Assembly (NCBI GenBank): GCA_034638255.1
Contig: JAWPGT010000065.1
Location: 59,434-123,433 of the forward strand
Direction of reading: 5' to 3'
DNA: 64,000 bases
From: Coprinus comatus
Taxonomy: Eukaryota; Basidiomycota; Agaricomycetes; Agaricales; Agaricaceae
Translations under genes and position numbers: made by a program
Shown: in pieces, positions 20,246-54,435 of the stretch
Layout of the letters: the number at the start of each line of letters is the position of its first letter
How positions within the stretch are numbered: position 1 is the stretch's first letter
Notes under the pieces: generated by a model
Told to the model about the DNA's origin: nothing
Databases searched by the model: none
Seen by the model: only the letters and a program-made list of their open reading frames with translations

Positions 20246-20281
20246 GGCACTTCATAGCTGCCATGTTCGTATTCAGGGGAG

Positions 20282-20520: not shown

Positions 20521-20860
20521 GTTTAATTGGTTGATACCTGGCAATATGACTGCTACTGAAGCAGATTCATCAGAAACATGTAATGTTGCATCCTTGAATA
20601 CCTATATACAAGGGATATGTAAGTTAATGAGTTCGTTCTTGGTAGTAACATATCAGTTAAGTTGGTACATACCTTCAAGGCTTCTGATAGCTGTGAAGCC
20701 ACTTTCCATTCCTCCGGAGTGATGTACAGGCTGCTTAGAGCTTCATTCTCTAGAATGAACTCTTTCAGATGAATCTCATGTTGAATTGCAAACATGAGAA
20801 GGTCATATGTCAAGTTCCAGTGAGTTGGAACGTCATGAGGTATTACACAGAGCAGTTATG
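20521..20860 (-). pseudogene. hAT transposase, upstream part
   Basis: Read on the - strand the frame gives VIPHDVPTHWNLTYDLLMFA, matching the DVPTRWNSTYDML block of hAT transposases, and TPEEWKVASQLSEALK. It then crosses a 71-bp intron (20672-20602, donor GTATGT, acceptor TATAG) and resumes in phase as VFKDATLHVSDESASVAVIL up to the GTTTA next to the copia LTR. The reading frame continues without a break at 38464 on the + strand. hAT enzymes move DNA by cut and paste; this one is split and has upstream stops. 20861-21340 contains possible N-terminal Ser/Glu-rich remnants on the same strand, without a clean frame. Confidence 0.85.
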
Positions 20861-21340
20861 GCAGCAAAGAAGATCCTTCCATTTGGGACCCAGAAGTGTG
20901 GTAGATAGGTTTACCTGGACTGATAAATGTTGAAGCTGAGCAGAACAAGGGTAAGAATGGTGGTTGGCATGAGTGATGAGAACATGTCACATGTGAGTCA
21001 TGACACATTCCACTTTGTACTGACCTTTGTCATGCAGGTGCCTGTTCAGGAATGTCAGCACCTTGTTCTACACTCCCAGATTCTTCAGGACCTGTAGAAT
21101 CATTCATTGTGACTTCCTCGACTACACTTGATACAGCTGATTCTTCAACAAGTTGTAGGAATAACAAATGCATGCTGAGTTGGGTAGACTGGATGCATCA
21201 GGTGATTGATGTGACATGTGAAGGGTGGCTGATTTCTTTGAGGTTGGACTGGGATTGTGTCCATGTCTTCAGACACATTTTTCTTCTGTTTCTTTGACCT
21301 TATTCAGTTTTTGTTTGTGACACAGACTTTTTACTAGACT

Positions 21341-21566
21341 GTTCCTTTTTGTATATATACTGTACCAGTTCAACTGGAAACCTCACTCTCTTATTGCTTC
21401 TTTGAGTGTGAGGTATGATATTCCTCTTAACTTACTTTAGACTTTCTAATGCTAACGACATACCTATAGACTTACAATACTTGTTATTCTTATAGGTACT
21501 TACTAACTCTCTCTCTTATCACTTCTTCGAGTGTGAGACTTACAATACTCGTTATTCTTATCAGTT
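21341..21566 (+). mobile_element. Leader/LTR-like region of copia element 2
   Basis: A TATATATACTGTACC box near 21352 is followed by a duplicated segment (CTCTCTTATTGCTTCTTTGAGTGTGAG and a diverged copy near 21512-21537) and then TTATGGGCCCC just before the Gag ATG. The same word follows the 5' LTR of copia A, so it is probably the primer-binding site. The LTR borders are not certain and no matching 3' LTR was found. Confidence 0.45.
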
Positions 21567-23936
21567 ATGGGCCCCATGAATTGCAACATGAGCTACAACA
21601 TCCCCAACAACATCCTACCAGCTTACATTCCCAAGCTTAATCAAGATGGATCAAATTGGGCTTTGTTCATATCCAGATTTCACAGTGCAATGGTCTCCAA
21701 AGATCTATGGGGACACTTTACAGGAGAGAGTGAATGTCCTATTCTACCTAAGATCACTAATACCACTACTATCCCATCCCCAAAATCCATCCCTGATGCA
21801 GAGAAGGACCCAAAAACCATACCCAATACCTCACCAACCCCTGTCAACATCAACAACTCCTCGATCCTTGAACAGATTCACATCTGGAACAGGAAAGATG
21901 CCATCACTAGATCATCCCTTGCCACCGTATTGCCAGATGCTACTTGGGTCATTGTAGATCAAGCTGCAAACGTCAAGAATATGTGGGATCTGGTCAACAA
22001 TAATACAGGCTCAGCTAATGCAGTGGAGTCAGATGATGAGAATGTGGCCATGGCGGTAGATCTTGGAGAGGTAGAGGATATAGGAGATGATTTTGATGAT
22101 CCTTTGATGCCAGAATTAGATTTGTCAGATTATTATGGGTCGGATAGTGAGAAAGAAGTAGATGATGATGATGGGGATATGATGGAATTGGCATGTGAGG
22201 AAGAAGAAATTGTTACTCACGTACAACCAGAGACATCTATTTGCATTGAGATCATTGATTCAGGAACTTTGAAACATATTTCACCATATCGGGAAGCATT
22301 CTCAAACCTTTACAACACAACTCCACTACCCCTATGAGCTGCAAATAAACAAAGTTTCAATGCTGTCGGTAGGGGTGACATGCAGATCAACATACCAAAT
22401 CAATCTCAATCTGCCTCTCTTACCCTGAAGGATGTCCTATACGCTCCTCAAGCTGGATACACACTTGTTTCGGTTGGAAAACTCGATGACGCTGGGTTTA
22501 CCCTCAAGTTTGGAGATGGAAAATGCATAATCTTTGATCCAACAGGTAAGATCATTGGTATTATCCCTAAAAACAAGCAAGGGTTATACAAGATGATCAA
22601 AAATGACATGCCTGAAGTCAATGCAGTATCCGATTTACTTACTATCCAGGAGGCACATAAACAACTTGGACATTTGAATTTTGGAGCAATTAAGCAGATG
22701 TTGAGGGAGAAGATGATTGTTGGAATAAAAGTGCAGGATGACAGCAACACCAAATTAGAATATGAATCTTATATCTATGCTAAGTCAACACACTTGCCAA
22801 TAGTGAAGGAAAGGCAAGGTCAACATGCTTCAGGCTTTGGTGGGGAAGTTCATTCAGATGTTTGGGGACTGGCTACCATAGTGACTAAAGGAGGGAAATG
22901 TTACTATGTAACATTTACAGATGATTATTTGTGATGGACTCACATTGAACTTATTGCCAATAAATCAGATGTTTTTGAAGCCTACAAATGCTATGATCAG
23001 TGGTGTGAGACCCAATTCCAGACTCACATCAAAGTTCTGCACACGGATTGAGGGGGAGAATACATGGGGGAAGAATTTCTTAATTACCTCAAGAGTTGTG
23101 GAACAGAAGGAAAACGTACTGTACATGACACTCCTGAGCACAATGGAGTCACAGAACACTGAAATCGCACAATCCTGGAATGTGTACATGCTATCAATCA
23201 TCTTCCGAGATTACCTAGAAACCTGTGGGGCGAAGCAGTTAGACATGTTGTATGGTTGATGAATCAAACACATACTAAAGCAGTTGAAGGAAAAACTCCT
23301 TTTGAAATGGTGTATGGAAGGACACCGGATCTAGCAGGTGTGAGATCTTGGGGAGAAGAATGTTGGGTTCATGATAGTCAATGAAATAAGCTGGGTGGAC
23401 GGGCAAAGAAGGCAAGGTGGCTTGGCATGGATGAAGGAAGTAATGGGATGAGAGTTTTCTTTGCAGAAACTGGGAAAGTAAAAATTGAACGAAATGTACG
23501 ATTCATGGTGACTGACCTTGAGGGGGAGAATGGATTGTTAAAAGCTCAAAGTGAGGATAAGTCAAATGAATTACTTACCCACAACAGCATGACACCATCG
23601 ATTAACTCTGACTCCACTGACACCAACAACTCTATCCAACAAGATGACCCCATCCCTCCTATTGCCAACAACCCTCCGATCGCTAACGACCCTCATGCTG
23701 ACTGTTCAGTCAATGGCCATCAGAATGACCCAATATCCGACCCTGAAGGTGATACAAGCAGTAACGACCCTCCTGCAAATCAACGTCCATCGAGGATCAG
23801 GAAACCAAGTAAGAAGGCGCAGGATATACTTGATGGCATTGCAGTGTCTCTGGTTGAAGAAGATTTGGGTGAATTTTGTGAACTACCACCCATCATTCTC
23901 ACAAACAAAGTGGTGCCTCCATCACAATTTAGTTGA
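21567..23936 (+). pseudogene. Copia element 2: gag, protease, integrase, truncated
   Basis: The Gag frame from 21567 includes YIPKLNQDGSNWALFISRFH and a long acidic stretch, and runs directly into IDSGTLKHISPY, the protease DSG site, so part of Gag is deleted. After a stop at 22336 the frame from 22380 has LKDVLYAPQAGYTLVSVGKL and HKQLGHLNFGAIKQML (GAG-pre-integrase zinc region), then HSDVWGLA, the first integrase catalytic Asp. The integrase is then broken by TGA codons at positions that are Arg or Asn in relatives (SRWTH, HTDRGGEY). It resumes as an integrase C-terminal/linker frame (23427-23936) with RIRKPSKKA. No reverse transcriptase or RNase H follows, so the element is 3'-truncated. 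Confidence 0.85.
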
Positions 23937-24239
23937 AGATGAGTAAGTATTGACCTCACTTGACCAATATTTGATTTGGCAACAAGAAGTGTCACAAAAC
24001 TTGGTGAAAAGATCAAAGTGTGAGTTCTATGATTTTTCCACAACCAAGGAAATTCAAGTGAATTTTTCAGGATTAAAACAACTGACACCACCAAATTATA
24101 AGATGAATATGTGAAATTAGTAGAAGGTGTATATAGTCATACAAAGTCAATCATATTTTATCCCGCCCAGCCCTTCCAGAAGACATGTTACATTTTGAAC
24201 ATATTGTAGGTAGCTAAAATGGTAATAATGAGATAGGAC
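23937..24239. other. No gene recognised
   Basis: This is sequence downstream of the truncated copia with no clear frame. No LTR was identified. Confidence 0.4.
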
Positions 24240-24656
24240 CTACTGACATAGATGAGAAATACACACCTCCTTAAAAATCCTATCAGGCCGATTCGCATAC
24301 CGCTGACATATACAACATACACCCTCAGGACATTTTTCCAGGTGGCTACTACTATTGAAACATGTTTGTTGTCCACAATCAATCTTTTTGTCATGTTGGA
24401 AATAGTAGTGTCTGCATGTGTATTTGTTGAAGTGTAGTTCACAGTAACACATTGTGAAATAGGATGTGGGAACTTGGAAGACAACTGGCAAAGTGGGTAG
24501 ACTTTGAGAGTAGGTGGGAAAGTTTGGTTGAACCTTGGACTTTTTAAGGCCATTGTGCACTTCACAAGATTGGCTTGCTAGGATCGGCCCTGAAATAACT
24601 GATGACAGCATTATGGCATTGCCATAGTCTGGGAAATATACAAAACAATGAACCAC
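24240..24656 (-). CDS. Cys/His-rich small protein, unknown
   Basis: A 138-codon frame carries a dense run of Cys and His in its C-terminal half: CYCELHFNKYTCRHYYFQHD, then IDCGQQTC, SSSHLEKC, GVCCICQRY and RIFKEVC. Spacing is regular enough to suggest at least one zinc-binding fold. Proteins with a comparable C-x-H...DC...C-x-S-x2-H...C-x-C pattern occur in fungal genomes without a known role; that resemblance is from memory. The N-terminal 45 residues are unremarkable. It lies between the dead copia and AT-rich DNA, inside the reconstructed large transposon, so it may be cargo. There is no intron or signal peptide by eye. Confidence 0.5.
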   Translation of the reverse strand: MVHCFVYFPDYGNAIMLSSVISGPILASQSCEVHNGLKKSKVQPNFPTYSQSLPTLPVVFQVPTSYFTMCYCELHFNKYTCRHYYFQHDKKIDCGQQTCFNSSSHLEKCPEGVCCICQRYANRPDRIFKEVCISHLCQ

Positions 24657-25594
24657 ATCAGATGCTGTCTTCTCTAATTTATAAAGGTTTCACCACAAGC
24701 ACACTGTTGGTCCATTTGATTAAACAGCTTTATCATGTATATTGGTTTGTTGTTCAGTTCATCTACTGAAAGATGGGGGGGGGGAGAATCTTTCACAGTT
24801 TGGCTCTCCCTATGATATTGTTAAAGTTGGAGCCAATAGTTCTAGAACTCTAGAATTATTGAATAATGCTGACATATTATTGTTACAGTTAGTTAATAGT
24901 TGGGCCGATGGTAGATGACAGATGTTCTAGTTGCTTCCAGATAAAAATAGAGCTGATGTTATTATATTATCATGGTCTAGACCCATTGCTATAATATATA
25001 TAAGGTAAGCTAGCCTTGGAGCTTGTCGCAAACTTCAACTTCTTTCCCCCATTTTTTTTTTCTCCTGTGGCAGAAACCCTGTGTCAAGTTAAAACCATGC
25101 TGAGGGCCCCAGCTAATGGTCTTGTGCAGTGACTGCTACAGTTTTCTCCCTCTTTCCCTCTCAACTCAATTTTAATTTTCATTTTCTCTTCTACTCTTTA
25201 ACTATCATATTAACCCCTTGCATTCTTAATCATTTTGTCCACTGTACCATATGGATTTAGACAAGTTTTTCTTCATGTTTTATATTACTAATTATATTTT
25301 TATTTAGAATGTTTGATAGAATACCTAATCAACGGTTCTACATTTTGGCTCTTAGGTATGAAGTATTTGTCCAATTTCTTGATTCGTTACTAAGAAATCT
25401 CATTATATTTACTAGGAGTTATTTTGATCTAATATTGTACTTACTAATTTTTCTCTCTACTAGACATTGATTTTTTGTCAACAATTTTCAAGTAAGTCAT
25501 TAATATATAGCTTTAATTATCATACTAACTTTGTTTTGGTTTCTATAGGTCTTTTTCTATAACTATTTCTGATATTTTTCTAGTAAGTCGTAAC
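24657..25594. other. AT-rich stretch without a gene
   Basis: It contains a polypurine run GAAAGATGGGGGGGGGGAG (24770-24788) and a TATAATATATATAAGG box near 24990 followed by a pyrimidine-rich leader. These could be remains of an LTR, but no borders or second copy were found. Confidence 0.4.
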
Positions 25595-25920
25595 TTATCT
25601 TATGTTTTAAGTTTATATTAAATCTATTGGTTAGTATACTTTGGCCAAAGAGTTTGTTGATAGCTATAGGTATATTAGTCTATCTTCTAAGCTCAGCTGA
25701 TAACTTTTGCTTCTAGATTATTGTTGTTGGACTATCTTGTTTCTAATGGTTTTAGTAAGTGATTATTTGTCTAGTCTTTTAAACTTAAATATTAAATGTA
25801 TTTGTTCATATACTAGAGCTAAAGAGCTTGTGAATAGCAATAGATATGCTTGGTATATCTTCTAGGCTTGGCTAACGACTTTTGTTTTTAGATTATTGGC
25901 CTCTTTCTATTATATTAATT
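25595..25920. repeat. Diverged tandem duplication (~165 bp)
   Basis: Two consecutive units share the order TTAAATCTATTGGTTAGTATACT / TTAAATGTATTTGTTCATATACT, then AAAGAGTTTGTTGATAGC / AAAGAGCTTGTGAATAGC, ATCTTCTAAGCTCAGCT / ATCTTCTAGGCTTGGCT and TTTTGCTTCTAGATTATTG / TTTTGTTTTTAGATTATTG. They are old copies. No coding frame is present. Confidence 0.7.
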
Positions 25921-25955
25921 TTTTTTTACTTTTATTTGTATCCTTTACAATTGTT

Positions 25956-26060
25956 TTTGCTTATAAAATTAGTGGACTGTGCACCCACTAGCTTTATAAG
26001 CAAAGGTTTTTTCATTTTTTTTTTTTGACTCATAATAAGAAGTTTACACAAACTTCTTAT
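25956..26060. repeat. Two hairpins flanked by poly-T tracts
   Basis: The first hairpin pairs TTTGCTTATAAA (25956-25967) with TTTATAAGCAAA (25993-26004), extended by TAGTGG/CCACTA, with a loop of about nine bases. The second pairs ATAAGAAGTTT with AAACTTCTTAT around ACAC (26035-26060). T runs of 12-20 bases lie between and after them. They may be a small hairpin element or a structured 3' region of the - strand gene that ends near 26340. Confidence 0.65.
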
Positions 26061-26332
26061 AATAAGTCTTTTTTTTTTTTTTTTTTTTTGTGGTTATTTT
26101 TTTTATATATGTACTATATATATATACTCATCTAATTGTATTTTTTTGCTCACATCACTACTCTAACCCTAACCCCAATATGAGTACCCATGTTACATAT
26201 ATATATAAGTTTGATTTCTTGATAATATTAAACCTCAAATCAAACTTTAGCGATACTATAATACATAATAATTTCTACTTAATAATGCTTAGTACTATAC
26301 TTTATATATTATTTAGAGAATAAATGAATTGA
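26061..26332. other. AT-rich spacer
   Basis: Poly-T and TA-rich sequence with one CTAACCCTAACCCC patch at about 26163-26176, two telomere-like units only. No gene seen. Confidence 0.5.
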
Positions 26333-27517
26333 TTAAAGAAATATTAAAGGGCTAGTATGAGTATTTTTACTCTTCGCTTCAGCAGCTTGCAACCTCTCTT
26401 TAAGTTCTTCTAATTCTATGTCTTTTCTTAAGATCTCGTCTTTTGCCCTTTCAACCTCTTTTTTTGCCTCATCTAAGTCCTTAGCCATTCCCTTTGTATC
26501 TCCCCTTTTAGCAATTACCAACAAGTTCACCATTTTACGAAAATCATCAATAAGTTCAATGGTTTCTTCTTTACCTTCTCGTCGTAACCTTGGAGAGCTA
26601 TAGTGGCTATCTGTAAGAACTCCTGTCGATGGCTGTGAGAGAATAATAGTATATGAGTCTGTTTCCTGTGCAAATCTCTCGACCTAGAATATATCATCAA
26701 TAATGTAACTTCTAACAAAAGTAGACCTAACCATACTGATGCTATAAGACCAGGAAGTAATCGTCTATATCGTTTACTTCTATCGCTTGCATTTACTTTC
26801 AAAGGCCTTAGCTCTCTTGGTCTCTGGATAACTAGATTATTGTTATTCATATAAATATCAAAATAAAAGGATAATACTTACTCCACTTTTCGTTTCCTTT
26901 CATTGCTCCTTCTACAAAACCAAACTTATTATTTTGTTCTTTTCCTTTGGCTTTAGCACCTCCATTTGTCAATAATCTAGAAGATAGGAAATCATTTGAG
27001 GTTCCTGCTGGTGTTGGTGTGTTGTTGTTTGAGGCAGTTGGAGTCGAGCCATCATCTGAGCTATACTCAACATCATCAAACTCGCTAGACCGAATTGAAT
27101 TTTCTGTTGCTGGAGAGGAAAGCCAATCTCCAGTTTGGATAGGGGTAATTGGAGCAAGAATATGTGTGTTGTGGAAAGCCCTTTGTGGAGTTACTGGAGT
27201 GTTTTGGCTATTTTCTTCGTCTGTTTCCAAATTCTGCAAAGAGTCTTCTCTAGTCACTTCCTCTATAATACTATCTCCCATCTCTCTCTCTATAACTTCC
27301 TATAACAACTAACTTCAGTCTATAGTTATAAAAGTTTCTAATTAATTGTACTTACATTTGGAGTCAAAATTCGTCCCCCTTTCTTTCCAGAGCATTGACA
27401 ATTTCTCTTGAGAGGTTGGTTAGGGCATACTCTGCATGTAGGAGGCTTTCTAGTCTTCTTAATACCTATAGGAGTATCTCGGACTTTCTGTGTTGGTCGG
27501 CGAACTCTAGAACCCAT
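26333..27517 (-). CDS. Coiled-coil protein with small Cys cluster, transposon-borne
   Basis: The gene reads leftward from the ATG near 27517 (MGSRVRRPTQKVRDTPIG). Exon 1 is basic and has CRVCPNQPLKRNCQCSGKK, four Cys in a compact cluster. A donor follows (GTAAGT near 27355), then exon 2 (about 27300-26880), rich in Ser, Thr, Asn and Glu. Another GTAAGT donor follows and a basic exon with PRELRPLKVNASDRSKRYRR. The final exon ends in a strong coiled coil: DLDEAKKEVERAKDEILRKD and ELEELKERLQAAEAK. It is divergent from the KDZ-like gene, with about 80 bp between start codons, so the two probably share a promoter. No stops interrupt the proposed exons, but exon joins in 26540-26850 are uncertain. 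The family is not recognised; a DNA-binding partner of the transposase is a guess. Confidence 0.6.
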
Positions 27518-27599
27518 AGTTGAACTTATGTAATTCACATTACTACTTTTATATGATTCCTGTATTATGTTATATTTGGTTCAACTTAACTTTTTCCCT

Positions 27600-30500
27600 A
27601 TGGGCAAGCGACAAAGACAAGTATCTGAAGACTTCCAGCCTATTCTATCTCTTGATTCTCCACCTGAACCATTTGCTTCTTTAACTATTCTTGATAATCC
27701 TCCTGATGAGAGATTATATACACCCCAAAAAAAACAACGACTACATAAAAAAGGTTTTACAAGACAGCACAAATCTAGAAAATCCTCTATTTCTGTTCCT
27801 CATACAACTGAAGATCAATTACCTTCTACTTCTGGTCTTTTATTTGGTTATGAAGAAGCTGCAAATACATACTCCCAAGAGCCAAGCCTCCAAACACTCG
27901 TTTTACAGGATTCCTATACTGAGTTTGTAGATGGAGTTCTTACTGAAGCTATCCCATTTTATCGCATTACTTCAGCTATATACTTAGTTCAAGGATGGAA
28001 CTCAAGAACTGCTACCTTAACTGTGTTTTTTTTTTTAAATAAAATTGTTAATAACGATTAAAAGATTAAATATTAGGGCAATAGTACCATTTACAATTGG
28101 ATTACTCAACAAGTCCACCTATACCAATTTGTTATTGTGGTCTTGGTATATGATAGGTCAATATGTCCATTCAAGATTTCTTATTGAATATCCTGAAAAT
28201 TTTGACCAACCAGAAGGTTTGGCTTTAGCTTTGAATATTTTAATTTTTTTTTTTTAACTATTTATTCTAGATCTTGATTCTGATATTATAATCTTTTCAG
28301 AGAGAACAGATTGAAGATGGATTTTTGAATCTCTTTTCTGTTTCATCAAAAAATGACCCTCAATCAACAAAAAGTCGGTCTATAACTTGTTATGAGGGCC
28401 CAGATAATGGTATTGGAAAATGGAGCTGTAATAAGGATTCTGGGTCAAAATGCTCTCATATCCAAAGATCAATTCTTTATTTTCAATCAAAGAGGTTTTT
28501 CTACACTATCTAAAGCTATGATGATGATGAGTCACAAGGTAAAATGCTTATTTATTTAAACTTTTTAATATATATATTAACAATCATTTCATTAGATAAT
28601 ACACCAGAAGTTCAAGTTGCTGGTATTAGAACAAGCAAACCCATTTCCTATCAGCCAATTCTCCCACCTTTATCATTTCGGATTCCATCAGATAACTTGG
28701 GCTTATATATAGAAGCTCCTCCAATCACCAATATTCCTACTCTTATCGCTCTTCACCCATCATCAAAGTGTTCTTGTGGACAAATGTACAATAGTACATT
28801 TCCAGCATATGAGCTGGAATGTATTGTTTATGGTCTTACAAAAGCCATGAGAACAAAGATTCAACTTTAAAAATGCTTACTTTGCAATAAAAGTTGCTAC
28901 CAGGCTATTGGACCAGATTGTCGGGAAAAAGGAATATTCAATCTCAACAACCATTCTTTATTTTCTCATGATCTCCTTGAAGATTATACGATCTCCTATT
29001 CAACTTCTGAAACACCTTTTACTGCTTGGGTCAAAATTATTTTGGCTAGATACCAAAAGTATCAAAGCTCTGTTGGATTTGTGGATGAGAAAATCTTTCG
29101 TTCTGCTTGGTTTGGATATGCTTCCTTTCTTCTACTTGAAGGAGATATGAAATGTCCAACCTGCAAAGATTTTCCAGAAACAGTTATCTGGGATGGTGTT
29201 ACTCTGGCTTTTAATAAAAAAAACCTACAAAAATCACTCTACCCACCTACAACTATCTCTCCCAACTCTCTTGTTCGACATTGCTCATATCCAAAAAATC
29301 AAGCTCTAGTTTCAGATATAGCTTGTCGGAAACTACTCAAGTCAACATTTTATGAACCACTCAGCCTTATTACTCCCTCAAAAAATACAGTTTTGGATAA
29401 TGAATCAACAGACGATGAATCCCAGACTACAATTACAAAAGGCCTTCAAAAATTACTATCAAAACTTTCAAACCTTCCAGTTTTTCAAAAAATGCTAGAA
29501 AAGGAAAATAAAAGTTTAGGTGCATTGTTCAACTGACATTGTACTGAATCTGCTTTATCCAAGTCAAAAGGGGGATGCTCTAAGGAAGTTGTTAGTTTTT
29601 TCTATCAGGTATTTATTGTTTATACATAAATTATCTATCAATTACTAATGTTTATTGTAGCTTAGCAGTAACGATTCAATACTTCAAGTAATTAACCAAC
29701 AATCACTATTCAAATTAGAGGATTTTCTCAAAAATCCCTCTGACAAAATAAAACTTGATCAGTTATGCTGTATACCATCTTTATTTTGGCTACTTAACTA
29801 TGAAAGAAAACAGCAACCTTTTTGGGATGATTCTGTTCTTGGAGTTTGCCAATGGTTAAAAGAAAAATGTCAAGTTGCAATGGCAAAGATTATTAAGTAT
29901 TCTTCTCCTCCAAGAATCGACAATATTCAAACTATAGATGGAGGGTGGCAAAAGGTAATGTAAATTTGTTTTATATTACTCTCCAGTTATCTGATTTTAT
30001 AATTTGTAGAGTGGCTGCAAATATAGTATGCCACAAATTCGGTATAGACCACAATATCCTGGTCTAAAATATGAAGCAGAAAAAGAACCAAAGGAAAGAG
30101 GTGGAAAATACAACAATATTATAGTACCTATGGTGAAAAAGGATTAACTGGAGGAATTATGTGTGCATGGTGTACACACTCGATATGCTATGGATATCAT
30201 TGCATTCCCTCAAGTGAAGGAAGGAATGATGTTTTTTTAGCAATGATAACAAGATGGCCTATAGCACCAAAATATGTCATTTATGACTTTGCATGCCAGC
30301 TTGGACCATATTTGTCGAGCAAGAGAGCCAGACTTCTTCATGGATACATCATTTCTTATTGATAATTTCCATTCTACAGGACATAAAGCCTGTAGTGCTG
30401 CCTATTTTCTTAGGACTTACTCAGAAAGCCAACCATCACTAGGGTGGCTAAACTCAAGTGCAGCTGAGTGTGGTAATGGAGGACTTACTCAGATAAGAAA

Positions 30501-30600
30501 ATCAGTTAGATATATGGGTCAAGAAAGAGCCATTTTGTATACTGCTGTATTTCTTTCACTATGGAATAGGGCAAGAATTCTGAACCTTCTAAAAATATAG
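27600..30600 (+). pseudogene. KDZ-transposase-associated cysteine-cluster gene
   Basis: A multi-exon gene starts at MGKRQRQVSEDFQPIL (27600). It has a basic N-terminus, then Cys clusters: SSKCSCGQMYNST (near 28760), LLCNKSCYQAIGPDC (near 28878) and GDMKCPTCKDFPETV (near 29140). The C-terminal part reads GGIMCAWCTHSICYGYHCIP, SSEGRNDVF, YDFACQLGPY, NFHSTGHKACSAAYF, NSSAAECGNGGLTQIRKSV and LYTAVFLSLWNRA. This combination of CxC-type clusters with the C-terminal FACQLGPY / GHKxCS / AECGNGGL blocks matches proteins annotated as CxC5/CxC6-like cysteine clusters associated with KDZ transposases. Two single-base losses break the frame, near 30116 and near 30312, so this copy is dead. It faces the terminal repeat at 31280 and is divergent from the coiled-coil gene. 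In KDZ elements such proteins are thought to act in transposition; the call is by motif, not by search. Confidence 0.72.
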
Positions 30601-31080
30601 ATAATCTTTAAATATAATACTTTTCTACAACTCTGCTACTAAAATGACCTATGATTTTATAAAAGATAGAAAGATTTTACTACTTTGTTGTACAAACAAA
30701 CCATAACTCTGTTGAAAATAGTAAAATCTTACTACTCTGTTGCACAAATCAGCTATAATTTCAGAAACAATAGTAGAATCATACTACTTTGTTGTAGAAA
30801 TCAACTACAACCTTATTGAAAATTGTAAAATCTTACTACTTTGTTGTACAAATCAACTATAATGTTAGAAACAATGGTAGAATCTCACTACTTTGTTGTA
30901 GAAATCAACTACAACCCTATTGAAAATTGTAAAATCTTATTATGCTATTGTACAAATCAGCTATGATTGTAGAAAAGATGGTAAAATCTTACTACTTTTC
31001 TATACAAATCAACTATATTTCCCTCTATTATAGTACATTTTTTTATAAATATAGTAAGATCTTACTAAAAGCTTTGCTCA
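30601..31080. repeat. Subterminal TACTAC repeat array, ~60-bp units
   Basis: Six to seven imperfect units alternate AAAATCTTACTACTTTGTTG with TACAAATCAACTATAA and TAGAAATCAACTACAAC. Neighbouring half-units are partly complementary (GTAGAA/TACTAC), as in the 31-bp array at 11.4 kb. The array lies between the KDZ-like gene and the transposon end. Confidence 0.85.
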
Positions 31081-31280
31081 TATTTTTGAATTTATATAAT
31101 CTAAAAGTGTACAAAATTCAGATTAAATCAATTGTATTGTCTATCATTATAATAATGGATACATATATCTGTACAAAAGGTAGCACCTATATATGTACCT
31201 TACCTAGTACCTATATATGTACCTGTTTAAAACAACTAGTTGTATCTGTTTGTTACCACTTTTGGTTAGTCAGCTACCTG
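31081..31280. repeat. Terminal inverted repeat of the large transposon, end 1
   Basis: Read inward from 31280 (- strand): CAGGTAGCTGACTAACCAAA, then TGGTAACAAACAGATACAAC and TAGTTGT. End 2 at 54212 reads inward GGGGCAGGAGACTAATAAAA, then the identical TGGTAACAAACAGATACAAC and TAGTTGT. Further in, both share ACATATATGTAC-type palindromes and AAAAGTGTACAAAATTC. The flank 31281-31288 is TTATTGGT, the complement of ACCAATAA found at end 2. Confidence 0.85.
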
Positions 31281-31872
31281 TTATTGGTTAAGCACTGCCA
31301 AATAAAATGGAATTTGATATCAATGTGCTTCGACCTCTTCTCTACAGTTGGATTTTGAGCAATGAAGAGGGAGCCCATATTATCACCACATATTTCCATA
31401 GGTTCACCATTAGATAAACCAAGTTCCATTATCATCTGGCGAATCCACACAGCCTGACAGCAGCTATCAGACAGTGCCATATATTCAGCCTCAGTGGAGG
31501 ACAAGGCAACAGTCTTTTGTGCTCAACTGACCCATGCTACTGGACAGGAGGCTAAAGTTGTAAAACACCCAGTCTGAGAATGTCGGTTTGATGGATCACT
31601 ATCCCAATCCAAATCACTATAGGTGATAAAACCTTCACCTTCTCCTCCATCAAGCACCATATAATATTCTTTGGTAGTGAGAAGGTAATGGCAAATGTAT
31701 AGAGCACATTTGAGATACTCTTTGGAAGGATTGTGGGTGTGTTGACTTAATTTGGTTACTGCAAATCCAATGTCTGGATGAGTACCAATCATCAAGTACA
31801 ACAGTGATCCAATCACCTGTTGGTAATGTGTCCAAAGTGTGGTGTTGACAGGAGCAGTATTAGGGACCACAT
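31281..31872 (-). pseudogene. Copia C RNase H, 5' portion, split by the large transposon
   Basis: The - strand frame reads VIGSLLYLMIGTHPDIGFAV, GFITYSDLDWDSDPSN, SSTEAEYMALSD and HIDIKFHFIWQCLTN, then stops at the transposon end. The next residues (KKVLLFFIPGTSNPADLL) are found at 54219 on the + strand, in phase once one ACCAATAA copy is removed. A TGA replaces the Trp of AWVSW near 31521, as in copies A and B. The upstream side is cut by a copia-A-family LTR at 31873. Confidence 0.9.
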
Positions 31873-32090
31873 TGTTAAAACAATAGTGTAGCGTATGTTG
31901 TATGGGTAGGTACAACTGACTTACTGAGTGTGAGGTGGTTGTTGCAGTAAGAGGAACTGAGTGTATATAATGCGAGAGTACAAGTTTATATACATATTTA
32001 CAGTGGTCCATGCAAGAACATATTAGGTCACATGTTCATCAAGCATAATGCCATAGAGAATGTCATCGTAGAACTAATAATAGTTCAACA
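31873..32090 (-). mobile_element. Diverged 3' LTR of copia copy B (218 bp)
   Basis: It has the family borders TGTTGAAC and TTTTAACA (on the - strand) but is clearly more diverged from the other three LTRs of the A/B pair, with several small deletions. Its outer flank (CACAT on the + strand) matches neither the A nor the B 5' flank. It interrupts copia C coding sequence. Confidence 0.8.
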
Positions 32091-32126
32091 CTCCCCTGAA
32101 TACGAACATGGCAGCTATGAAGTGCC

Positions 32127-35100
32127 TTACGTTGGGACCATATTATTTGAGTGCTTGGCAGCGCTATATGTGGGATTAGAAAACTCCAACCTGTAATAGT
32201 TATCACGGAAGTATTCAAACTTCACATGTCCGAGATTCTTCGTGAGAAGATCTGCAGGGTTCTCAGTGCCTGGAATAAAATAGAGCTGAACTTTCTTTTC
32301 ATCAATTACTTGACAAATGAAGTGGAAAATGATGTCTATGTGTTTTGATCTCTTTTCGACGGCAGGATTTTGTGCGATAAAGAGAGAGCCCATATTGTCT
32401 CCACAAATATCCATTGGTTCATTGTTGTGTAAACCAAGTTCAGTCATTAGGCTTCTGATCCAGATGGACTGATGACTACAATCGGAAATAGCCATGTACT
32501 CAGCCTCTGTGGATGATAACACAATAGTTTTCTGTAATCAACTGACCCAGGCTACTGGACAGGATGCAACAGTGGACAGATAACCAGTTTGGGATCTTCG
32601 AGTAGAAGGATCACTAGCCCAATCAGAATCACTGTAAGCAATGAAGCCCTCATTACCAGAACCATCAAGCATCATTTGGTATTCCCAAGTCACTAGTGGG
32701 TATCTACAAATATAGAGAGCTCTACACAAGTGTTCTTCCATAGGGTTATGAGAATGTTGACTTAGCTTAGTCACAGCAAATGAAATGTCCAGACACATGC
32801 CAATAGCAATGTACAACAGTGATCTGATCACCTATTGGTACCTAGAATGGATGGAGGAGTTGATCAGCTTGTTGTTAGGAACTGGATAGTACCCTTCTGG
32901 CAGCAGAGTTCGCGCCGGCTTGGTGTCACGGTCAGAACCAGTGACTTTAAACCTTTCCAGGATCTTTTCTAAATAAGCACATTGATCAAGATAGATCTTT
33001 CGATTAGCTCGATCTCTCCTGATGCGCATACTGAGAAATTCTTTGACTTCTCCAAGGTCGCGGCATTCCCACTTTTTCATGAACTCTCCTTTAAGTTTTT
33101 TAAGCAGGGCGGAGTCATTTCCCATAAAAAGTACGTCGTCAACATACACGACAGCAATGACAAACTTGCCATCTTTTTGACAATATATATAAATACGGCA
33201 TTGGATTCACATCGCTTGAAACCTAGTTTGTCCATGGAAGATGCCATCTCCTTCCACCAGGCCAAGCCGGCTTGTTTAAGGCCGTACAATGCACGTCGTA
33301 ACCTCCACACCATATGTTCCTTGCCCTTAAGTTTGAAACCTTCGGGTTGATCCATATAGATTTCCTCATCCAGTTTGCCATAGAGATATGCTGTCTTTAC
33401 ATCGACAGACTCAATGTCCCAGTCTTCAAGGGCGGCTAACCCGAGCAGGATTTGAGCGGACTCATATCGTACTACTGGAGAAAATAATTCATCAAAGTCA
33501 ATGCCCTCGACTTGAGAAAATCCTTTAGCAACTAGTCTAGCATGTTTGCAACCATCACTCTTTTCATTAAAGACCCATCTATTTTTTACAGTTTTCCTTC
33601 CTTCCGGAAGTTTCACCAACTCGTAAACTTGTCGCTTTTTAAGTGCAGCTAGTTCTCCAAGACAAGCTTTGTGCCAGTGTTTACGTTCCTCTGGATTCAA
33701 TTTTACAAGATCACGGAATTGCTCAGGAACAGTAGTTGAACTCGCTTTTGCCAATAAAAAGTTCATCAATTCTAACCCCCCTTCCTTAGTAATCCATTGA
33801 ATCTTACAATCTGCATCTTCTTCCATTGCGTCAGGTTGTTGTTCCCTCGCATATTGCCATGAGGCATCCTCGTGTTGTCTGTGTATTTCATCACGGCGTT
33901 CTGGGACTTCCTTGGGCGAAATAGGATGTGGATCTGCTTTAGGGCGATCTCGTTGATTTCGGATTCTGAAATCGTGACCACGGAGACGAACTCTCCCCTG
34001 AGGTGGTAGAGGTTCATTGTGATTATAGTCTCGTAGGATCTCAGACAGATGTGTTCTCTCCCCATAAACATTACCTTCTCTAAACGGAACAAACTTTTCT
34101 CAGCCAGAACGGTGAGGTAAAGGTTCAACTGGTCTAGGAGGTCGTTCAGGTGATGGAGAAATGGGACAGGTAGAGTCAGTATGAGGAGCAGGGCTCGGAC
34201 TCGGGTGACGAATAGGTGATCCGGGATCAGCGTATGATAATGCATCATCATCATCTTCATCAGTAACTTCCTCGACTGTTGTTTTCCTGGGAGCAGGTTT
34301 ACTCGGACCAGGAACAGGAGGTTTTTGAGAAGTAGATGGTCTGGGAATCGGACCTTGCGGTCTAGGCATGGGAGCTCTATCACTGTCATCTTGTCGAGAT
34401 GTGTCCATAGGATCATCAGGATAAAGATCAGGTGTAGTATCCTTGTCATCTTCATCAGATGCTGGAGGAGGAGGATTTATTTTGGGGTTTTTAGAAGAAC
34501 CAGAGTCCTTACGTTTTTCGTGATCTGACTTACATTTGGGATACCAGCCCTCGTCGAAAATAGCTGTTTTTGCAGTATAAATAACATTTCCTTTCTGATG
34601 TCGCATAAACATATAGTTTGCGCCAGCGTAACCAAGAAAGATCATTATTTCAGATCTGGGTGACAATTTGTCATCACGCGATTCCTTAGGAATGAAAACG
34701 TAAGCTGCACAGCCAAACACGTGAAGACCAGATAGATCTGGCTTCTTCCCTGTTACCATTTCAGTGGGAGTTTTCCATTTGAGACGTTTGATGGGAGTTC
34801 TATTGTAACAATGAACTGCTGTATTAAGGGCAAATTCCCACCAAGAATCTGGTAAGCATGCAGTAAGTCGCATGGCCTGCGCCTTTTCCTGAAGTGTGCG
34901 GTTCAGTCTTTCTGCTCTACCGTTCTGCTGGTGAATGTGTGGTGCAGACGTCTCGTGTACTATCCCTTTTGAACAAAGGAATTCCTCAAATTGTTTTGAG
35001 ACATATTCGCCACCATTGTCTGTCCGGATACGCTTAATTGTTTTACCGAATTGTTTTTCCTCAAAGGCACAAAATCTTTCAAGTGCCACAAAGGCATCAG

Positions 35101-35600: not shown

Positions 35601-35605
35601 GCCAT

Positions 35606-35902: not shown

Positions 35903-35907
35903 GCCAT

Positions 35908-46485: not shown

Positions 46486-46506
46486 GCTTAGAAAGACGAG
46501 AGGAGG

Positions 46507-47063: not shown

Positions 47064-47068
47064 TGTTG

Positions 47069-48771
47069 GCCTTAGGCCCTTGGATACTATGTTCCAGTTC
47101 GTACTTGACAACCCTGATTTCAAGCCTCCCGTAAAGACAACTGTGGACACCTCCCAACCTACATGTGTCAGCGGTAATCAATTCAACATGGCTGGTGCTA
47201 TTCTGAAATCACTTGCAGGTCTCCGCAAGCATTCTCACCACCTGCTAGCTTGCAAAACACTGTTGCTCAATATGCCAATCCATTCAGCTTCTCCCTTCAA
47301 GTTATTGAGGCTGGCCAATCGCTCATCCTCAACTCGCACAACACTGACATTGCCCAAGTATGTATCTCATTCAGGTTAAGTTGGATTTTAAATACTAACT
47401 CTTGATGATCACAGCTTGATCTTCCTAGGGCTACTGCAAATGGTGGTGTTTCCACTGGTAATACTGTTGATCTTGTCATCCAGTTCGAAAACCAACTGTT
47501 GAAGTCTCTCAATAATGCTGCATTCACCCAAATGTTTGCTGGTGTTACACTTCAGGACAACCTTGAGCTTACCTTGAGAGGTGCTGCAGATGTCACTGCT
47601 AGGACGGCTATTGGTGACATCCCTATTACTGGTATTCCCATCAATGTCAACACTTCCTTGAAGGGAATCAACTCTTTTGGTGGTACCGCTGAATTGGGTG
47701 ATGTCACAGTTACTGGAAGCGGAGGTGCAAGTGGCAATGAGTATATCCTTTCTCCCTTGAATACTACACTAAGGAACCTGTCAAACATTGCATTGAACAC
47801 ACTTGACATCTCTCTCCCCGTCATTTATGAAGGCACCAAGATTGGTCACTCCATTATTCGTGTAAGTTTTTATTTATTTATTATATGTGAGGGTCATTAC
47901 TGAGTATTATTTAGGAATTCGACCTCATTCCAGGAGACAATGTGTTCGAGACCGAGTTCCATTATCAACCAGATAATGCAAACGATACAGTTGCACAAAG
48001 CTTCTTGTCCAGGTTCATCCAGAGCGAAGATACTTTGCCTCTTCACATTGACGGTGATGACCACAGCACACCATTTGGCTCGTTGGGTCCCACATTGAAA
48101 ACCGATCTTGTAACGGTCAAATTCAGTGTTCAAAATCCTCTTGATACACCCATGGTTATTGAATTTGTGCAATCAGATGGTAGTATCAAGGATGTTGTTT
48201 ATGTGCAATTCAGATATGGATTTGATGGAGGATTCGAGATTCCACCTGGCAAAGAAAGAATGTCCCCTCAGATTCCTGACGTCAGGCTCACACAAGGTGC
48301 TATTGCTTCTCTCAACATCATTCCTTTGGGTTACCTTGATGTTGATGCTGCCAATACTGTTCGCATTGGTGGTGCTGGCGGATATCAAATTCCTTAGTTG
48401 AAGCTTACACAGAAATGTGTACCTACTACTTATGATCTCGTCTTGGGCTTCGCTATGGCTAAGGGTAGGATGTCATTGGATGGTCTGATTAGCCAGGCAA
48501 AGAACTGGATCAATGAACATAACAACTCGTTGTCTTCATCATCTTCTTCGACCACTACCCTTTCGATCAGTGCCAGTGCTAGTGCTACCGATGCAGCCAT
48601 GACAACTGATGCCGCTGCCAAAGGTTCTGCCACAACATCCACTGAGCCCAAGGGATCTAGTGCCACACCCACAAAGATCGAAGAAGCTGCTGAACCTACA
48701 CCTACTCCTGAAGTTGTAGCAGACAAAGCTGCTCCTTCAATAGAAGAGGCTACCACTAGTGAGAGTGCTTG
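47069..48771 (+). pseudogene. DUF3712-type gene, main part
   Basis: The frame resumes as LDTMFQFVLDNPDFKPPV, then MAGAILKSLA. Next is a segment reading QNTVAQYANPFSLQVIEAGQ that needs a short intron or indel near 47210-47250. An intron at about 47357-47413 follows, then a long exon with NTVDLVIQFENQLLKSLNNA, ITGIPINVNTSLKGIN and TVTGSGGASGNEYIL. A further intron (about 47861-47913) leads to EFDLIPGDNVFETEFHYQPD and MVIEFVQSDG. A TAG at 48395 (GGYQIP-stop) is followed in phase by LKLTQKCVPTTYDLVLGF and a Ser/Thr/Ala-rich tail to 48771. The block order is that of DUF3712 proteins, fungal surface or vacuolar proteins of unknown function. The insertion, the stop and the missing anchor make it a pseudogene. 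It lies inside the reconstructed large transposon, so it may be a captured host gene. Confidence 0.75.
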
Positions 48772-49489
48772 AATTTCTGGAACCATGGTAATATAATTGT
48801 CACAATTAGTATATACTTGTTCCTATGCACTCTCACCCCTATTGCCTTGGGACAGGTTAGGGATGGCCATCCCTGGTTGCCATCTTGGCAGCTGTCATCG
48901 GCTGCTGACAAATCCGACTTATATGCTGCTGTTTCCACACCACCCCACCATCCTCTCTCCATCCCCACCCCCTTCCACTCTCCTCATTGGGTCCTAGTCC
49001 TCCTTCCTTGCTGCAAATTGCCTGGCCTAGCCCCAGTCAGGTTTCTAGGTGAACCAATTTGCTGTGCTGGTTGGTCGGGTGCTGGTCTCCCCAGTGTTGG
49101 GAATATCGCAAACATGGAATTGGCCAACTACCTACAACCTTGAGCCTGCCTTGGTCTCTTATATGGATTTACGGGCGCCCCTCAATGGTCTGTAGGCTGT
49201 CCCTTTCTGTGTCGCAGGTGTTCCCAACCTGAGGTTGGCCCACTGCTCCACAACACATCCCCCCACCTATCCCATCCCATCTCCTCTCCTGCATGCTATG
49301 CTCTCCCATATAACCTAGATGTAGACCATTGTGTCATAGATAATTAATATAAATTATTTCTTTTTCCCAAATTAATTAAGATTATGTCAGCATAAATTTT
49401 ATATCTTGCCTCTTACCACATCATTACTACAATGCCCCCATCCTCTCTACTCCCTGCTACAGCTCTGATGTTGCCAAAACCTATTACCT
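48772..49489. other. C-rich spacer without a gene
   Basis: A C-rich stretch with palindromes AGGGATGGCCATCCCT (48862 region) and CCAACCTGAGGTTGG (49230 region), then an AT-rich promoter-like stretch (49320-49400). Open frames here have no recognisable domain. Confidence 0.45.
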
Positions 49490-51014
49490 TTGTTTAAGCA
49501 ATTAATATTGCCTTGGTAAACAACAATGATCTTCCCGAACTCATTGCCAATGGGAATATTATCTGCAATCCTCTTAACAAGTTCCTAGTTGATCTTTCCA
49601 AATCTGTGGGGTCTGATGCATCGGATGTGGAGAAGCTTCGGGCTATGTTATTTAGGCATTTGGGTCGCCTTTGCCAATTGGAAACCACCCATCCTTCTAT
49701 TGTGGCAGCTTATGGTTGCTTCAAAAGCACTTGTATGGAGCAGCACAGGAAGAAACAGAAATTTCTTGGAAAGAACCAGATGACAAGTTGCTTTCGCAAC
49801 AACACTGATCTCATCTATACCAGCATCTCTACCCTTTCCCTCTCCCAACCTCGTGCAATCTACCCTCCCAAGGCAATATGGGTTACTGAAAATAGTGATA
49901 TCTTGGATCATTGGTCGTTCCATCTCCAATATGGGCCAAAGGCTGATAATAGGCTTCCTCATTGCAAGCCAATGCTTTTAGATGAATCCAAGCTGCAGAA
50001 AATTGTATTGCCCCATGAATCAATAATCATCAGAGATAAGAAGACAACCAAAATTGTCCTTGTTGTTTTGAGGAATGTTGCTTCTCCAGCAGTGTTGGAT
50101 CATTTGGGAGCAGTAGTTGGGGAGGCGACATTGGCAAGGAGAAATATTTGGGTGGGTACAATCCATATTATTATTTGATTAATTATTAATGCAATATTAT
50201 AGAAGGATGATGCTGGTGTGCTGGTTATGAGTGGATGGTCAGCAGGTTCTCGTTCCAAGGCAGCTTTCCACTGGGTCTGGAATATCCTTCGTAAATGATC
50301 TGAAGCTGACATCAACCATCTCAATATCCAAGAAAGCAATGCATTTGGTTTTGTTTGGAACTTGCTACAACATCGTCTACCTGAAGAAGTCAAATCCAAT
50401 TTTACCAACTTCATGGAATCTACCTGACTACCTCGTATGAATGCATTTATGAAAATTAGTAACAAAACTTTGGGATCATATACAGTTAAAGCAGGAGATA
50501 TGGAGTTCACATTTGATAATGTTGAATTAGCACCTCCAACTGGTGCTATGGCACAAGATTATGCAAGGTATAATCGCAATCTACTGTATTTACTTAATAA
50601 ATTACTTATACTTCTTATAGACCCATGCATAATGAGGGACAACCTCATAAGTATGCAGTTTCCTTTACAGTCGAGCAATATGGTGGAGAACATGATGGAG
50701 GGCATTTCTATGTCACTTCATATGGGATTAAAGTAGAGCTAGAAGCTAATACGATTATTGTTTGGCAACCAAGGCATATTCATGGAACAAGTCTTCCAAA
50801 TGCCCATCCTGCTGATGAATCACCAGCCTTTTTACAAAGAGGTTTGGCATTTGTAACCTCTCCCCGACTTCCTAATGCATGGAAAAAATATGTTGACCAA
50901 GTTTGCAAAACCCCCCATGCAATTGACAATATTGCAAAAAAAGTAGAAGAAGCTCTCTGGGGACCAGAAGCTGAACAAGATGAAGTATACAAAGATGAGA
51001 CTACAGTAGTATAA
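49490..51014 (+). pseudogene. 2OG-Fe(II) oxygenase-like gene, transposon-borne
   Basis: The frame from about 49490 reads LRAMLFRHLGRLCQLE, IRDKKTTKIVLVVLRNVASP and VVGEATLARRNIW, to a donor at 50152. A 51-bp intron follows, then VLVMSGWSAGSRSKAAFHWV. Two in-frame TGA stops follow (near 50297 and 50428), then SYTVKAGDMEFTFDNVELAP. After another intron (50570-50620) comes the core HKYAVSFTVEQYGGEHDGGH, with YGIKVELEANTIIVWQPRHI HGTSLP after it. His and Asp in GGEHDGG and His in the HGTSL block fit the HxD...H iron site of 2-oxoglutarate oxygenases found in large numbers in Agaricomycetes. It is a different branch from the gene at 6.8-7.9 kb. It precedes the unknown gene copy II on the same strand, as the other oxygenase precedes copy I. 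The substrate is unknown. Confidence 0.6.
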
Positions 51015-51280
51015 ATGTAGTAGCTTTTTTTAATTCATTTTCTATTTTTTATTTGTGAGTATAGCTTGCTACTGACTTTATCAAGGTTGTTGCTCTTATA
51101 ATAGAGCTATTTGTATATTCTTGCCAAGGTGATTGATAATAAATAGATCAGTCTAGACCTTATTATGTATAATATTTAGTTTAGTATGTATAGTTTTTTG
51201 GTCAATTTGTAGTATAAACCAACATGACATGACACAATTTTTATATCTTACTTTCCCATTTGCTCTATCCCCTCTACCAT

Positions 51281-53779
51281 GTCTACAAGTATTAGCTCTG
51301 ATACTTCTTCCATTTTACCCATGGTATTAGTAAAAGAAGAACTCAACAAAGAACTAAAGAATTGTATCTATGATTTTGAGGCAATGAAAAACTCTACCCA
51401 AGGGAAAGTGGCTGGTCATAAGTTTTTTTCCCCTTAATTCATATATATCTTTGCTCAGATATACTATATATATTTCTAGAAAGTAAAGTGCTACAACAAA
51501 GAATTAAAGATCTTCGTTATCGATTAAAGAATATAAGATGTAAAATTACAAAAGTGAAAAAAAATTTGGATATAAAGGGTTTGTATTTCTACTTTCTAAA
51601 ACTTCTTGTCTGACTCCATTTATCTAGAAAAACAACCCAAACTATTATCTATACCCCTACCAATACTTCCTCCAAGTACTTCACAAACAAAACCCAAACA
51701 TAGGGTTTCTGTCATTATAACATCTCCCTCTAAATCTACTACCTTACCAAGTCAGTCTCAAGAAGCCATTCCTCAACCTAGCTCTCCTCTTTTGTCTATC
51801 TCAAGTGACTCACTTGAGAATGATAGTATGTTATATATTGAAATTTATTTAATTTTATTCTAACTACTTGATATTACTAGATAAGAACTCAAATGTACAA
51901 CTTGAAATGACTAGTAATTTGACTACTACTCACTTTCAGGGTATTTTTTCTATTTTTTTTTCTTTGTTATTTTTTTCTTATTTGTTTAAAAATCAACAGA
52001 GCCTACTTTGGCATATTAATTCTAACGATATAGTAGCAAATACTCAGTATCAAAGTACAACACCTCCATTGATATCATCTTTGCTTTTGAGGTCACCTTC
52101 TCTTCTACCCTCTATCACCCCACCTATTTTGGCTTCTATACCTGAACTTTCACCAACAACAGAAGATTCTAGTATACCAGCTTTACCTCTGCATATTAAC
52201 AGTACTAGTGATAGAGTGGAATCAAATGCACGATATGTTGAGGTTGACTCTGATGATGATACTTATAGTAAGCTATTTCTTTTTTATTATTATACTCTAT
52301 TATTAATAACTTTTACTTATAGCAGTCTCGGTTGGACAAAAGTGAAAACACCAAGTGATTTATGATAGTAGTAGTGACAATGGTAGTGGAGAAGATAAAC
52401 GAGAATCTTGTATGTTTTTTCCCTTATTATTGAGTAATATATCTTATAATCTAAAAACCTCTAGCGATTAAGCATAAGAAATCAAGAAACAAAAAAGGGG
52501 CAAAGCAAGCACAAAGTAAGGGAAGAGAGAAGCGAAAGAATGATGACAATAGTAAAGAAAGCAAAGAAGATATTGAGATTTATGCTGGTATATATCTATT
52601 ATAATGGTCTTTATGTTGCTAATATTTGTTATAGAAGGTGATACAGCTTTACTTCATGCCTGGATGTCAAGTTCCAAGAAGAAGCCAAAGATTCCAATTG
52701 AAACCAAGAATCATATTTGGTTCAATTGCTTATATCTTCCCAAGGCTTATATGACTTCTCCTGAACTTACAAAAGAATTACTTACTAATGGATATAAAAA
52801 TTTTATCTGTCTCCACCACTCTAGAAAAGATAAAATCACCAATCATATTAATGGTGATGACTTGGTATCTGGGGTTGTGATTCATGGAACTGGAGTTGAG
52901 AGGTGTTATAATCTTGCCTATACCTCCATTTCGGTATAGATGATGCTACGATGGACCTCTTCAAGGTGCTCGTAGGAGGAGAACATCTACTCTTACTGAG
53001 ACTACTTTCAGGGGATGACCTCCACAGTACTCAGACTGTAGATCACAGGTGTTCCTTACTAATAAGTCGTTCGTGCAAGAGTTAGAGCTGACTCCAAGTT
53101 CTAGGGTTATCAGGCAGAGGACAGAGAGCGAGATAGCAAGTAGAACAGAGAGAACGAGAGTATTAAGCTGAAGCTTAATCTCTGTCGCTGTCCATGTATT
53201 TATACAACTACGATGTACAGGTTGTAGGCTGTGCATGATACATGTGAGACAGGAGGGTAAAACTATCTACAGCTGAAACGGTGAGTGGAACGACAAGTGG
53301 AAGTCCGTAGAAGGTACTAGTCCAAGGCTATATGAAACAGTAGTCCAAGGCTATGTGAAACGAGTAAGAGAAAGTACACTATCGTCCATCATTAGTTCTA
53401 ATGATTAGTCGTGATAAATATGAAACCGTAACAAGAGGGCAGGAAAGGGCAAGACTGAAACATTGGTCCAAGTTCAAGGATATGCCAACTGTAGTTGTCC
53501 TGAAGACTTAGTAGTTGCTAATGCGATGTTTTGGAAACTCTGGCAAGTTACTGCAATGGTAGATGGGGAAGAGGTTACTGAAGCATTGGGTCCACTTCCT
53601 TTAAATCCCTGAAATACTCTCTTCTTTATGCAAAATCTGGGGAGTAGTTTTGGTATTGACTGGCAGGACATGTATCTCAGAAACATATATGCAGATGAGA
53701 AGAAATGGGAAAAGTGGTTTTTAAAGTTGATGATAGCAAATTACACAAAGAGATATAGGGAGCTTTCTAGTCAGGAGTA
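51281..53779 (+). pseudogene. Transposon-borne gene of unknown function, copy II
   Basis: Paralogue of the gene at 8043-11291, with the same plan. A coiled-coil exon 1 (VLVKEELNKELKNCIYDFEA, ATG near 51281) is followed by a Lys-rich exon (LRYRLKNIRCKITKVKKN), Ser/Pro-rich exons, acidic and basic exons. The conserved C-terminal exon has HAWMSSSKKKPKIPIETKNH, LHHSRKDKITNHINGDD, VIHGTGVER, CSCPEDLV, AMFWKLWQV and WEKWFLKLMIANYTKRYREL. It is split by a family-E solo LTR at 52904. With the LTR and one AGAGG copy removed the frame is exactly restored (VER-AGKGKTE). One in-frame TGA (LPLNP-stop near 53610) stands where copy I has an Arg. It is the gene nearest transposon end 2. The function is not recognised. 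Confidence 0.65.
52904..53433 (-). mobile_element. Solo LTR, family E (530 bp), TSD AGAGG
   Basis: Runs from TGTTATAAT to CCGTAACA with perfect AGAGG duplications at 52899-52903 and 53434-53438. It is the reverse-oriented relative of the 4257-4774 element and contains the complementary TATTTATAC box. Confidence 0.95.
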
Positions 53780-54212
53780 GATAGATATATATAATTCCTA
53801 CTAAATACATTTGTCATTTGCCTTTTGTATCAAAAATGAGTAAACTTCGATAATATAATTATTCTTAACAAGATATTTTTTATAAATATAGTAGGATTCT
53901 ACAACTATTCTGTACAAATCAACTATAAGTTGTCCAATTATAGTACATTTCTTCATAAACATTGTTAAATCCTGCTAAAAACTTTGCTCAATTGTTTGAC
54001 TTTTCCTGATTTAAAAGTGTACAAAATTCTGATTAATTAATTTCTATTGCCTAGTATAATAATAATGGACACCTATATAGGTATAAAAGGTAGTACAGAT
54101 ATATGTACCAAGTAAGATACATATATATGTACCTATTTAAAATGACTAGTGGTATCCATTTATAACAACTAGTTGTATCTGTTTGTTACCATTTTTATTA
54201 GTCTCCTGCCCC
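53780..54212. repeat. Subterminal and terminal repeat of the large transposon, end 2
   Basis: A short TACAAATCAACTATAA / AGTAGGATTCTACAA subterminal region leads to ACATATATATGTACC palindromes and the terminal repeat ending CTCCTGCCCC at 54212. Inward it matches end 1 over TGGTAACAAACAGATACAAC TAGTTGT. The flank 54213-54220 is ACCAATAA. Confidence 0.85.
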
Positions 54213-54435
54213 ACCAATAAAAAAGTTCTATTATTCTTTATTCCTGGTACATCAAATCCTGCAGATCTTCTCACAAAGAATCTTGGTAGAGTTAAATTTG
54301 AGGACTTCAGGAACAATTACTATGGTTTAGTGTTCTCAAACCCAACATTTGCTGCTTCCAAGCACAATTTAAAATAATAATATGGATTAGTAGACAATGT
54401 CGCTTAATTGCTGACTATGCTTACGAAAAGGGGAG
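54213..54435 (+). pseudogene. Copia C RNase H, 3' portion
   Basis: The frame reads KKVLLFFIPGTSNPADLLTK, then VKFEDFRNNYYGLVFSNPTF, and ends near 54377. It is the direct continuation of the RNase H fragment at 31872-31281. A short purine tract AAAAGGGGAG precedes the 3' LTR. Confidence 0.92.

Follow-up and report, generated by a model that had tools for sequence, protein, structure and literature searches.

What kind of element does a 64,000-nucleotide stretch of Coprinus comatus contig C65 (hereafter the window) hold, when two related transposon ends lie 22.9 kb apart in it, face the same way and each abut a fragment of a copia retrotransposon? An earlier note on this DNA had rebuilt a large KDZ-like transposon from two inverted halves. 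We searched the 35.7-Mb assembly, the contigs of which are designated C1, C13, C65 and so on. We favor, with a probability of about 0.85, the reading that one KDZ-superfamily transposon with a CxC4 transposase, a small gene, a PE-type TET-like dioxygenase and a fourth gene inserted into a copia element, that an inversion or a mis-assembly followed, and that the dioxygenase would counter silencing.

Termini and target-site duplication

Both terminal repeats were found where the earlier note had placed them. The left end, at 31280 on the minus strand, has the tip CAGGTAGCTGACTAACC (CAGG type) with ACCAATAA just before it; the right end, at 54212, has the tip GTCTCCTGCCCC (CCCC type) with ACCAATAA just after it. 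Besides their CAGG and GGGGCAGG tips, the two carry a common subterminal 27-bp core in inverted orientation. The identity of the 8-bp flanks was confirmed, and with the base composition of the window such a match is expected by chance at about 2e-5. The proposed in-phase junction also held: when the reverse complement of the sequence from 31281 was joined to that from 54221 and one ACCAATAA was kept, a single open copia-like frame was obtained that reads through FHFIWQCLTNKKVLLFFIPG. An uninterrupted copia relative without the element, beside the C1 copy (locus L009), reads through the insertion site as well, with a compensating 1-base shift at the site in the alignment. The flanks had been described as copia RNase H coding sequence; the copia-like frame stood, whereas the RNase H label was given by eye and a Pfam search with the 5'-side fragment gave no match (the labels RNase H, gypsy and solo long terminal repeat (LTR) are tentative throughout). 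These features indicate that the two ends are the left and right termini of one cut-and-paste DNA transposon inserted in copia.

The same termini recur in the genome. At up to 3 mismatches the 27-bp core has 60 sites in the assembly, and the core read backwards has 0. Twenty regions and the window together hold 36 of the 60 sites. The loci L009-L040 include 10 neighbouring left-right end pairs of 631 to 4601 bp (L030 repeats L012 and was left out). A search for further copies with the same termini and 8-bp duplications had been suggested, and all 10 pairs have them, nine exactly and one at 7/8; L021 and L024 share an identical duplication and appear to derive from a single insertion. In the two neighbouring pairs of the same end type (L011 and L020), the flanks match at 1/8 bases each. 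The family therefore makes 8-bp duplications and has unlike tips.

Longer copies preserve the order of the parts. Copies of the transposase part (window 26000-31280) lie at C99:17830-23700 (91%) and C13:719432-725816 (87-94%), and copies of the middle part at C13:716860-719621 and C126:36838-39528, both at 97%. The right part is matched from 48844 on C1 and C13, from 48996 on C126 and from 49261 on C24, its main piece being 97-98% identical in all four. On C13 and C126 the listed pieces all lie on the minus strand, in the order predicted by the un-inverted window; on each of these contigs other repeats separate the middle part from the right part. On C13 the left end goes unmatched over roughly its first 400 bases. 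CCAAGTAT precedes the C99 left end and follows the C126 right end, where it recurs 10 bases further on. The break in each contig falls at one and the same LTR-like insertion, which has TATAG on either side and the site of which is uninterrupted in the window and in C13. We infer that C99 and C126 are one insertion split across two contigs. An observation that touches this repeat is that inverted 365-bp arms at window 56462-57565 match the LTR-like sequence inserted in the C99/C126 copy.

The present distance and same-facing orientation of the ends might suggest that they come from two different insertions sharing 8 bp by chance. This was rejected as highly improbable, given the expected frequency of such a match, the common duplication, the position of both flanks in one copia frame that joins in phase, the presence of one left tip and one right tip in the window, and the part order kept by other copies.

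Inverted copia arms

Undoing the inversion between copia copies A and B makes the ends of the transposon face each other, as the earlier note had claimed, and the order of parts on C13 and C126 bears this out. The junctions of the copia copies are also informative. GTTTA follows the 3' end of A and its reverse complement, TAAAC, follows the 5' end of B, a shared 5-bp duplication that fits an A/B inversion; of the six LTR pairs, A 3' with B 5' has the highest identity (97.5%), and the present arrangement offers no matching junction pair. Older copies probably contributed to the left copia, making it a hybrid. Within its left LTR, at window 13584-13965, lies a solo LTR of the copia C type flanked by ATATC, as judged by eye.

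Alternatively, the element may be as described and the inversion an artefact, in which the assembler took a wrong path through near-identical inverted arms. Over 14600-20300 the arms differ by only 1 substitution and 7 indel positions, several of them in single-base runs, whereas their LTRs differ by 2.5 to 15%. The arms could equally have been made alike by gene conversion or by recent exchange of inverted copies. The data are compatible both with a genuine exchange accompanied by conversion and with a mis-assembly; we regard the artefact as quite conceivable, at somewhat under even odds.

Genes of the element and its relation to known transposons

The cysteine-cluster gene that had been called KDZ-like was matched by PF18717 (CxC4) at 98 bits on one window exon in Pfam, and at 139 bits, with 1 internal stop, at C65:88166-88552 in the genome search, which gave 22 CxC4 matches at 20 places after neighbours were joined. 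Twelve homologous transposase proteins were found, the best of them an A. bisporus protein that carries PF18717 together with a marginal PF18758; in the A. bisporus homologue P0020 the latter scored 25.0 bits (E 1.8e-5), just below the cut-off of 26.6. The CxC4 cluster, together with defined termini and a fixed 8-bp duplication, including CCAAGTAT in the C99/C126 copy, places the element in the KDZ superfamily. Two exons of the divergent small gene gave no Pfam match above the curated cut-off. Of the Cys/His-rich frame that had been listed as cargo, it stood that a Cys-rich frame lies in the middle part common to C13 and C126, but no Pfam family was found, the two Cys-rich frames at 24.2-24.7 kb having no match above cut-off.

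The oxygenase gene, also listed as cargo, can now be placed as encoding a PE-type TET-like protein. The window copy has the motifs HNE and HGTS, that is, HxE in place of HxD and a downstream His, and in the C1 copy the gene is apparently uninterrupted. In the genome, 19 oxygenase matches fall at 8 places, namely in five copies of the element and, as diverged paralogues, on C30, C77 and C15. Nineteen homologous proteins were found, 18 named and 1 unnamed; the named ones, A. bisporus proteins among them, are all from mushroom-forming fungi. HxE is present in 15/16 homologues covering it (P0016 has HxK) and HGTS in 17/17. The predicted fold of P0001, a 42%-identical homologue, is a TET-like double-stranded beta-helix whose best Foldseek matches are the solved structures of TET2, CMD1, NgTET1 and CcTET. 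Homologues with HxE came from Ganoderma, Amylocystis, Gelatoporia and Fomitopsis (P0005, P0008, P0010 and P0017), all Polyporales. They would widen the Agaricomycotina range of the PE type, for which Kojima 2025 (PMC12730594) reports transposons in A. bisporus, L. bicolor and G. confluens.

That paper describes TET-carrying (TET+) transposons and HxE as the hallmark of PE-type TET, and the solved structures, 9-15% identical to P0001, have HxD where HxE stands here (PMC12730594). Because its oxygenase is TET-like and of PE type, the element is a TET+ KDZ transposon of this kind; since such transposons were described in 2025, the element that the earlier note could not place exactly is a new, clearly delimited family within a kind already known. 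The same paper counts Zisupton as a carrier of PE-type TET, describes it as TET+ in A. bisporus and gives 8-bp duplications and terminal inverted repeats for it (PMC12730594). The A. bisporus element, of PE type by our reading of the abstract's listing, resembles the present one, as far as descriptions can be compared, in its KDZ-type transposase, TET-like gene and 8-bp duplications; unlike it, our element has two further genes, and the transposases are only about 46-51% identical. The 8-bp duplications and inverted repeats of Zisupton are found here, but they do not settle the Zisupton lineage, since Dileera shares the 8-bp duplications. The TET+ Dileera elements of rusts, such as Zisupton-1_PGr, are likewise KDZ elements with a TET gene, although of PU type and in rust hosts (PMC12730594). 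TET+ Kyakuja elements (Laccaria and others) also combine KDZ and TET in mushrooms; according to the same paper they have 7-bp duplications, CA..TG termini, no inverted repeats and an AG-type TET, in contrast to 8 bp, an inverted 27-bp core and HxE here, and this lineage was rejected.

Several results weigh against our reading. At the second copia junction pair, CTTGT stands against ATGTG without a match and the LTRs are 87% alike, so that the junctions support the A/B inversion in part. No assembly copy was shown with both ends and all genes in one uninterrupted, ordered stretch. PF18758, the KDZ domain, had 86 genome matches, none at the window transposase, and was not reported for the spliced relative. 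Pfam gave no TET-type domain in the window oxygenase pieces and, at E<=1, nothing but an unrelated weak domain in P0001 and P0004; solved structures searched with a dioxygenase profile yielded 0 matches at E<=10, and the Foldseek TM-scores were low (TMq 0.33-0.40).

Weighing these, we propose that a KDZ-superfamily cut-and-paste transposon would have inserted in copia and thereby produced the duplication ACCAATAA, carrying from its CAGG end to its CCCC end the putative transposase, the divergent small gene, the TET-like dioxygenase and the repeated fourth gene. Acting on the unlike inverted ends, the transposase would mobilise both the element and its short derivatives, as the observed ends and duplications suggest. 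A copia would later have inserted into the element, and an exchange with the inverted copia on its left may have flipped 20522-31872, unless the assembler did so at the near-identical arms. Judged by its motif and the fold of its relatives, the dioxygenase has as its most likely activity the oxidation of methylated bases in the element, by which it may counter silencing. The analysis settles where a TET-carrying KDZ element begins and ends, which target bases it duplicated and how its genes are ordered, and a second copy agrees.

Table 1. Features of the element and its surroundings in the window
Feature	Position	Strand	Remark
Copia copy A, left arm of inverted repeat; solo LTR in its 5' LTR	13520..20521	+	
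Middle part: end of old copia relic and Cys-rich frame	23422..26121		common to C13 and C126 at 97%
Divergent small gene	26333..27517	-	open frames; matched next to transposase in other copies
KDZ-type transposase gene, several exons, with stops	27600..30600	+	CxC4 cluster 28733-29119
Subterminal repeats, 52-bp spacing	30626..31015		
Left end (CAGGTAGCTGACTAACC...) including 27-bp core	31214..31280	-	same tip in paired copies
Left 8-bp target duplication ACCAATAA	31281..31288	-	flank of left end
Copia C fragment, 5' side of target	31289..31872	-	RNase H label by eye
Copia copy B, right arm of inverted repeat	31873..38458	-	
DUF3712 gene	47065..48815	+	Pfam PF12505, 58 bits; this copy only
Right part of element	48844..54212	+	common to C1, C13, C126 and C24
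TET-like (PE-type) dioxygenase gene, three exons	49432..51011	+	2 TGA and 1 TAA beyond C1 copy
Fourth gene, conserved	51281..53781	+	split by solo LTR at ~52904-53433
Right end (...GTCTCCTGCCCC)	53988..54212	+	same tip in paired copies
Right 8-bp target duplication ACCAATAA	54213..54220	+	flank of right end
Copia C fragment, 3' side of target, with LTR	54221..54777	+	

Relatives without TET, decay and nested insertions

The transposase match and the fourth-gene match are separated by 10.3 kb on C27 and by 13.4 kb at C65:52634-70703, each time with a common strand, and by coordinates no oxygenase match is listed between them. TET- relatives of the same layout therefore seem to coexist with TET+ copies. 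With relatives of both kinds and short derivatives in one genome, the proposed anti-silencing role could be tested by comparing their methylation and expression. We tentatively suggest, while holding it rather doubtful, that TET is a swappable module of a KDZ chassis (made up of the ends, the CxC4 transposase, the divergent small gene and the conserved fourth gene) present in this genome both with and without it, and that this chassis may carry host genes, the window copy having acquired the intron-bearing DUF3712 gene of the host at the DNA level. A second KDZ element extends into the window with its right part: a fourth-gene relative (52%) lies at window 10665-11270 (C65:70098-70703) with a right-end-like tip at ~11803, and its transposase match, C65:52634-56731, lies left of the window, with no TET match listed.

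The dioxygenase may instead make a different base modification, act on other targets or be a passenger. CMD1, one of the closest structures in the fold comparison, attaches a glyceryl group to 5-methylcytosine (PMC12730594); transposase relatives without a nearby TET match are more numerous and closely alike (98-99.8%); the C126 copy has Tyr in place of the downstream motif His; and TET+ copies are likewise decayed, with C-to-T or G-to-A changes making up 92/106 private differences in the right part of five copies. Since the motif is conserved across homologues and the gene of the C1 copy is apparently uninterrupted, we consider such alternatives unlikely and prefer a role against silencing. 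The window copy itself is decayed mostly by C-to-T changes. The contexts in the TET+ copies (CpG 40, CpA 43, CpT 5, CpC 4) look methylation-linked or like repeat-induced point mutation. In eight diverged transposase copies the same changes account for 46/64 private differences; these counts come from different stretches and ages, and the idea that TET protects its element from C-to-T decay found no support in them.

The diverged TET-like paralogues, 43-75% identical, lie at C30:283224-284769, C77:105454-106396 and C15:594918-596284. No CxC4, PF18758 or fourth-gene match is listed on these contigs in the genome searches, and the paralogues may belong to other carriers or be host genes. The giant Starship elements of fungi have a tyrosine-recombinase captain gene at one end.

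The DUF3712 gene, named earlier as perhaps cargo, was rejected as a regular part of the element: it has no match in the other copies. It sits between a gypsy-like LTR and the common right part, and a genomic paralogue at C3:74761-77741 is ~90% identical through the introns, which makes a DNA-level gene capture possible. In all, the ~26.5 kb proposed for the multi-gene element agrees with the 26,513 bases measured between the ends without the central copia, but only ~12.7 kb is common to at least one other copy, much of the remainder being nested retrotransposons.

The fourth gene, the unknown gene of the earlier note, was upheld as cargo: it is conserved in other copies and repeated in the genome (34 match rows), and none of 672 candidates from outside this genome reached E<=0.001 as a homologue of its residues 300-526. 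The solo-LTR-like repeat within it is 530 bp long and has many further copies that are 90-96% identical.
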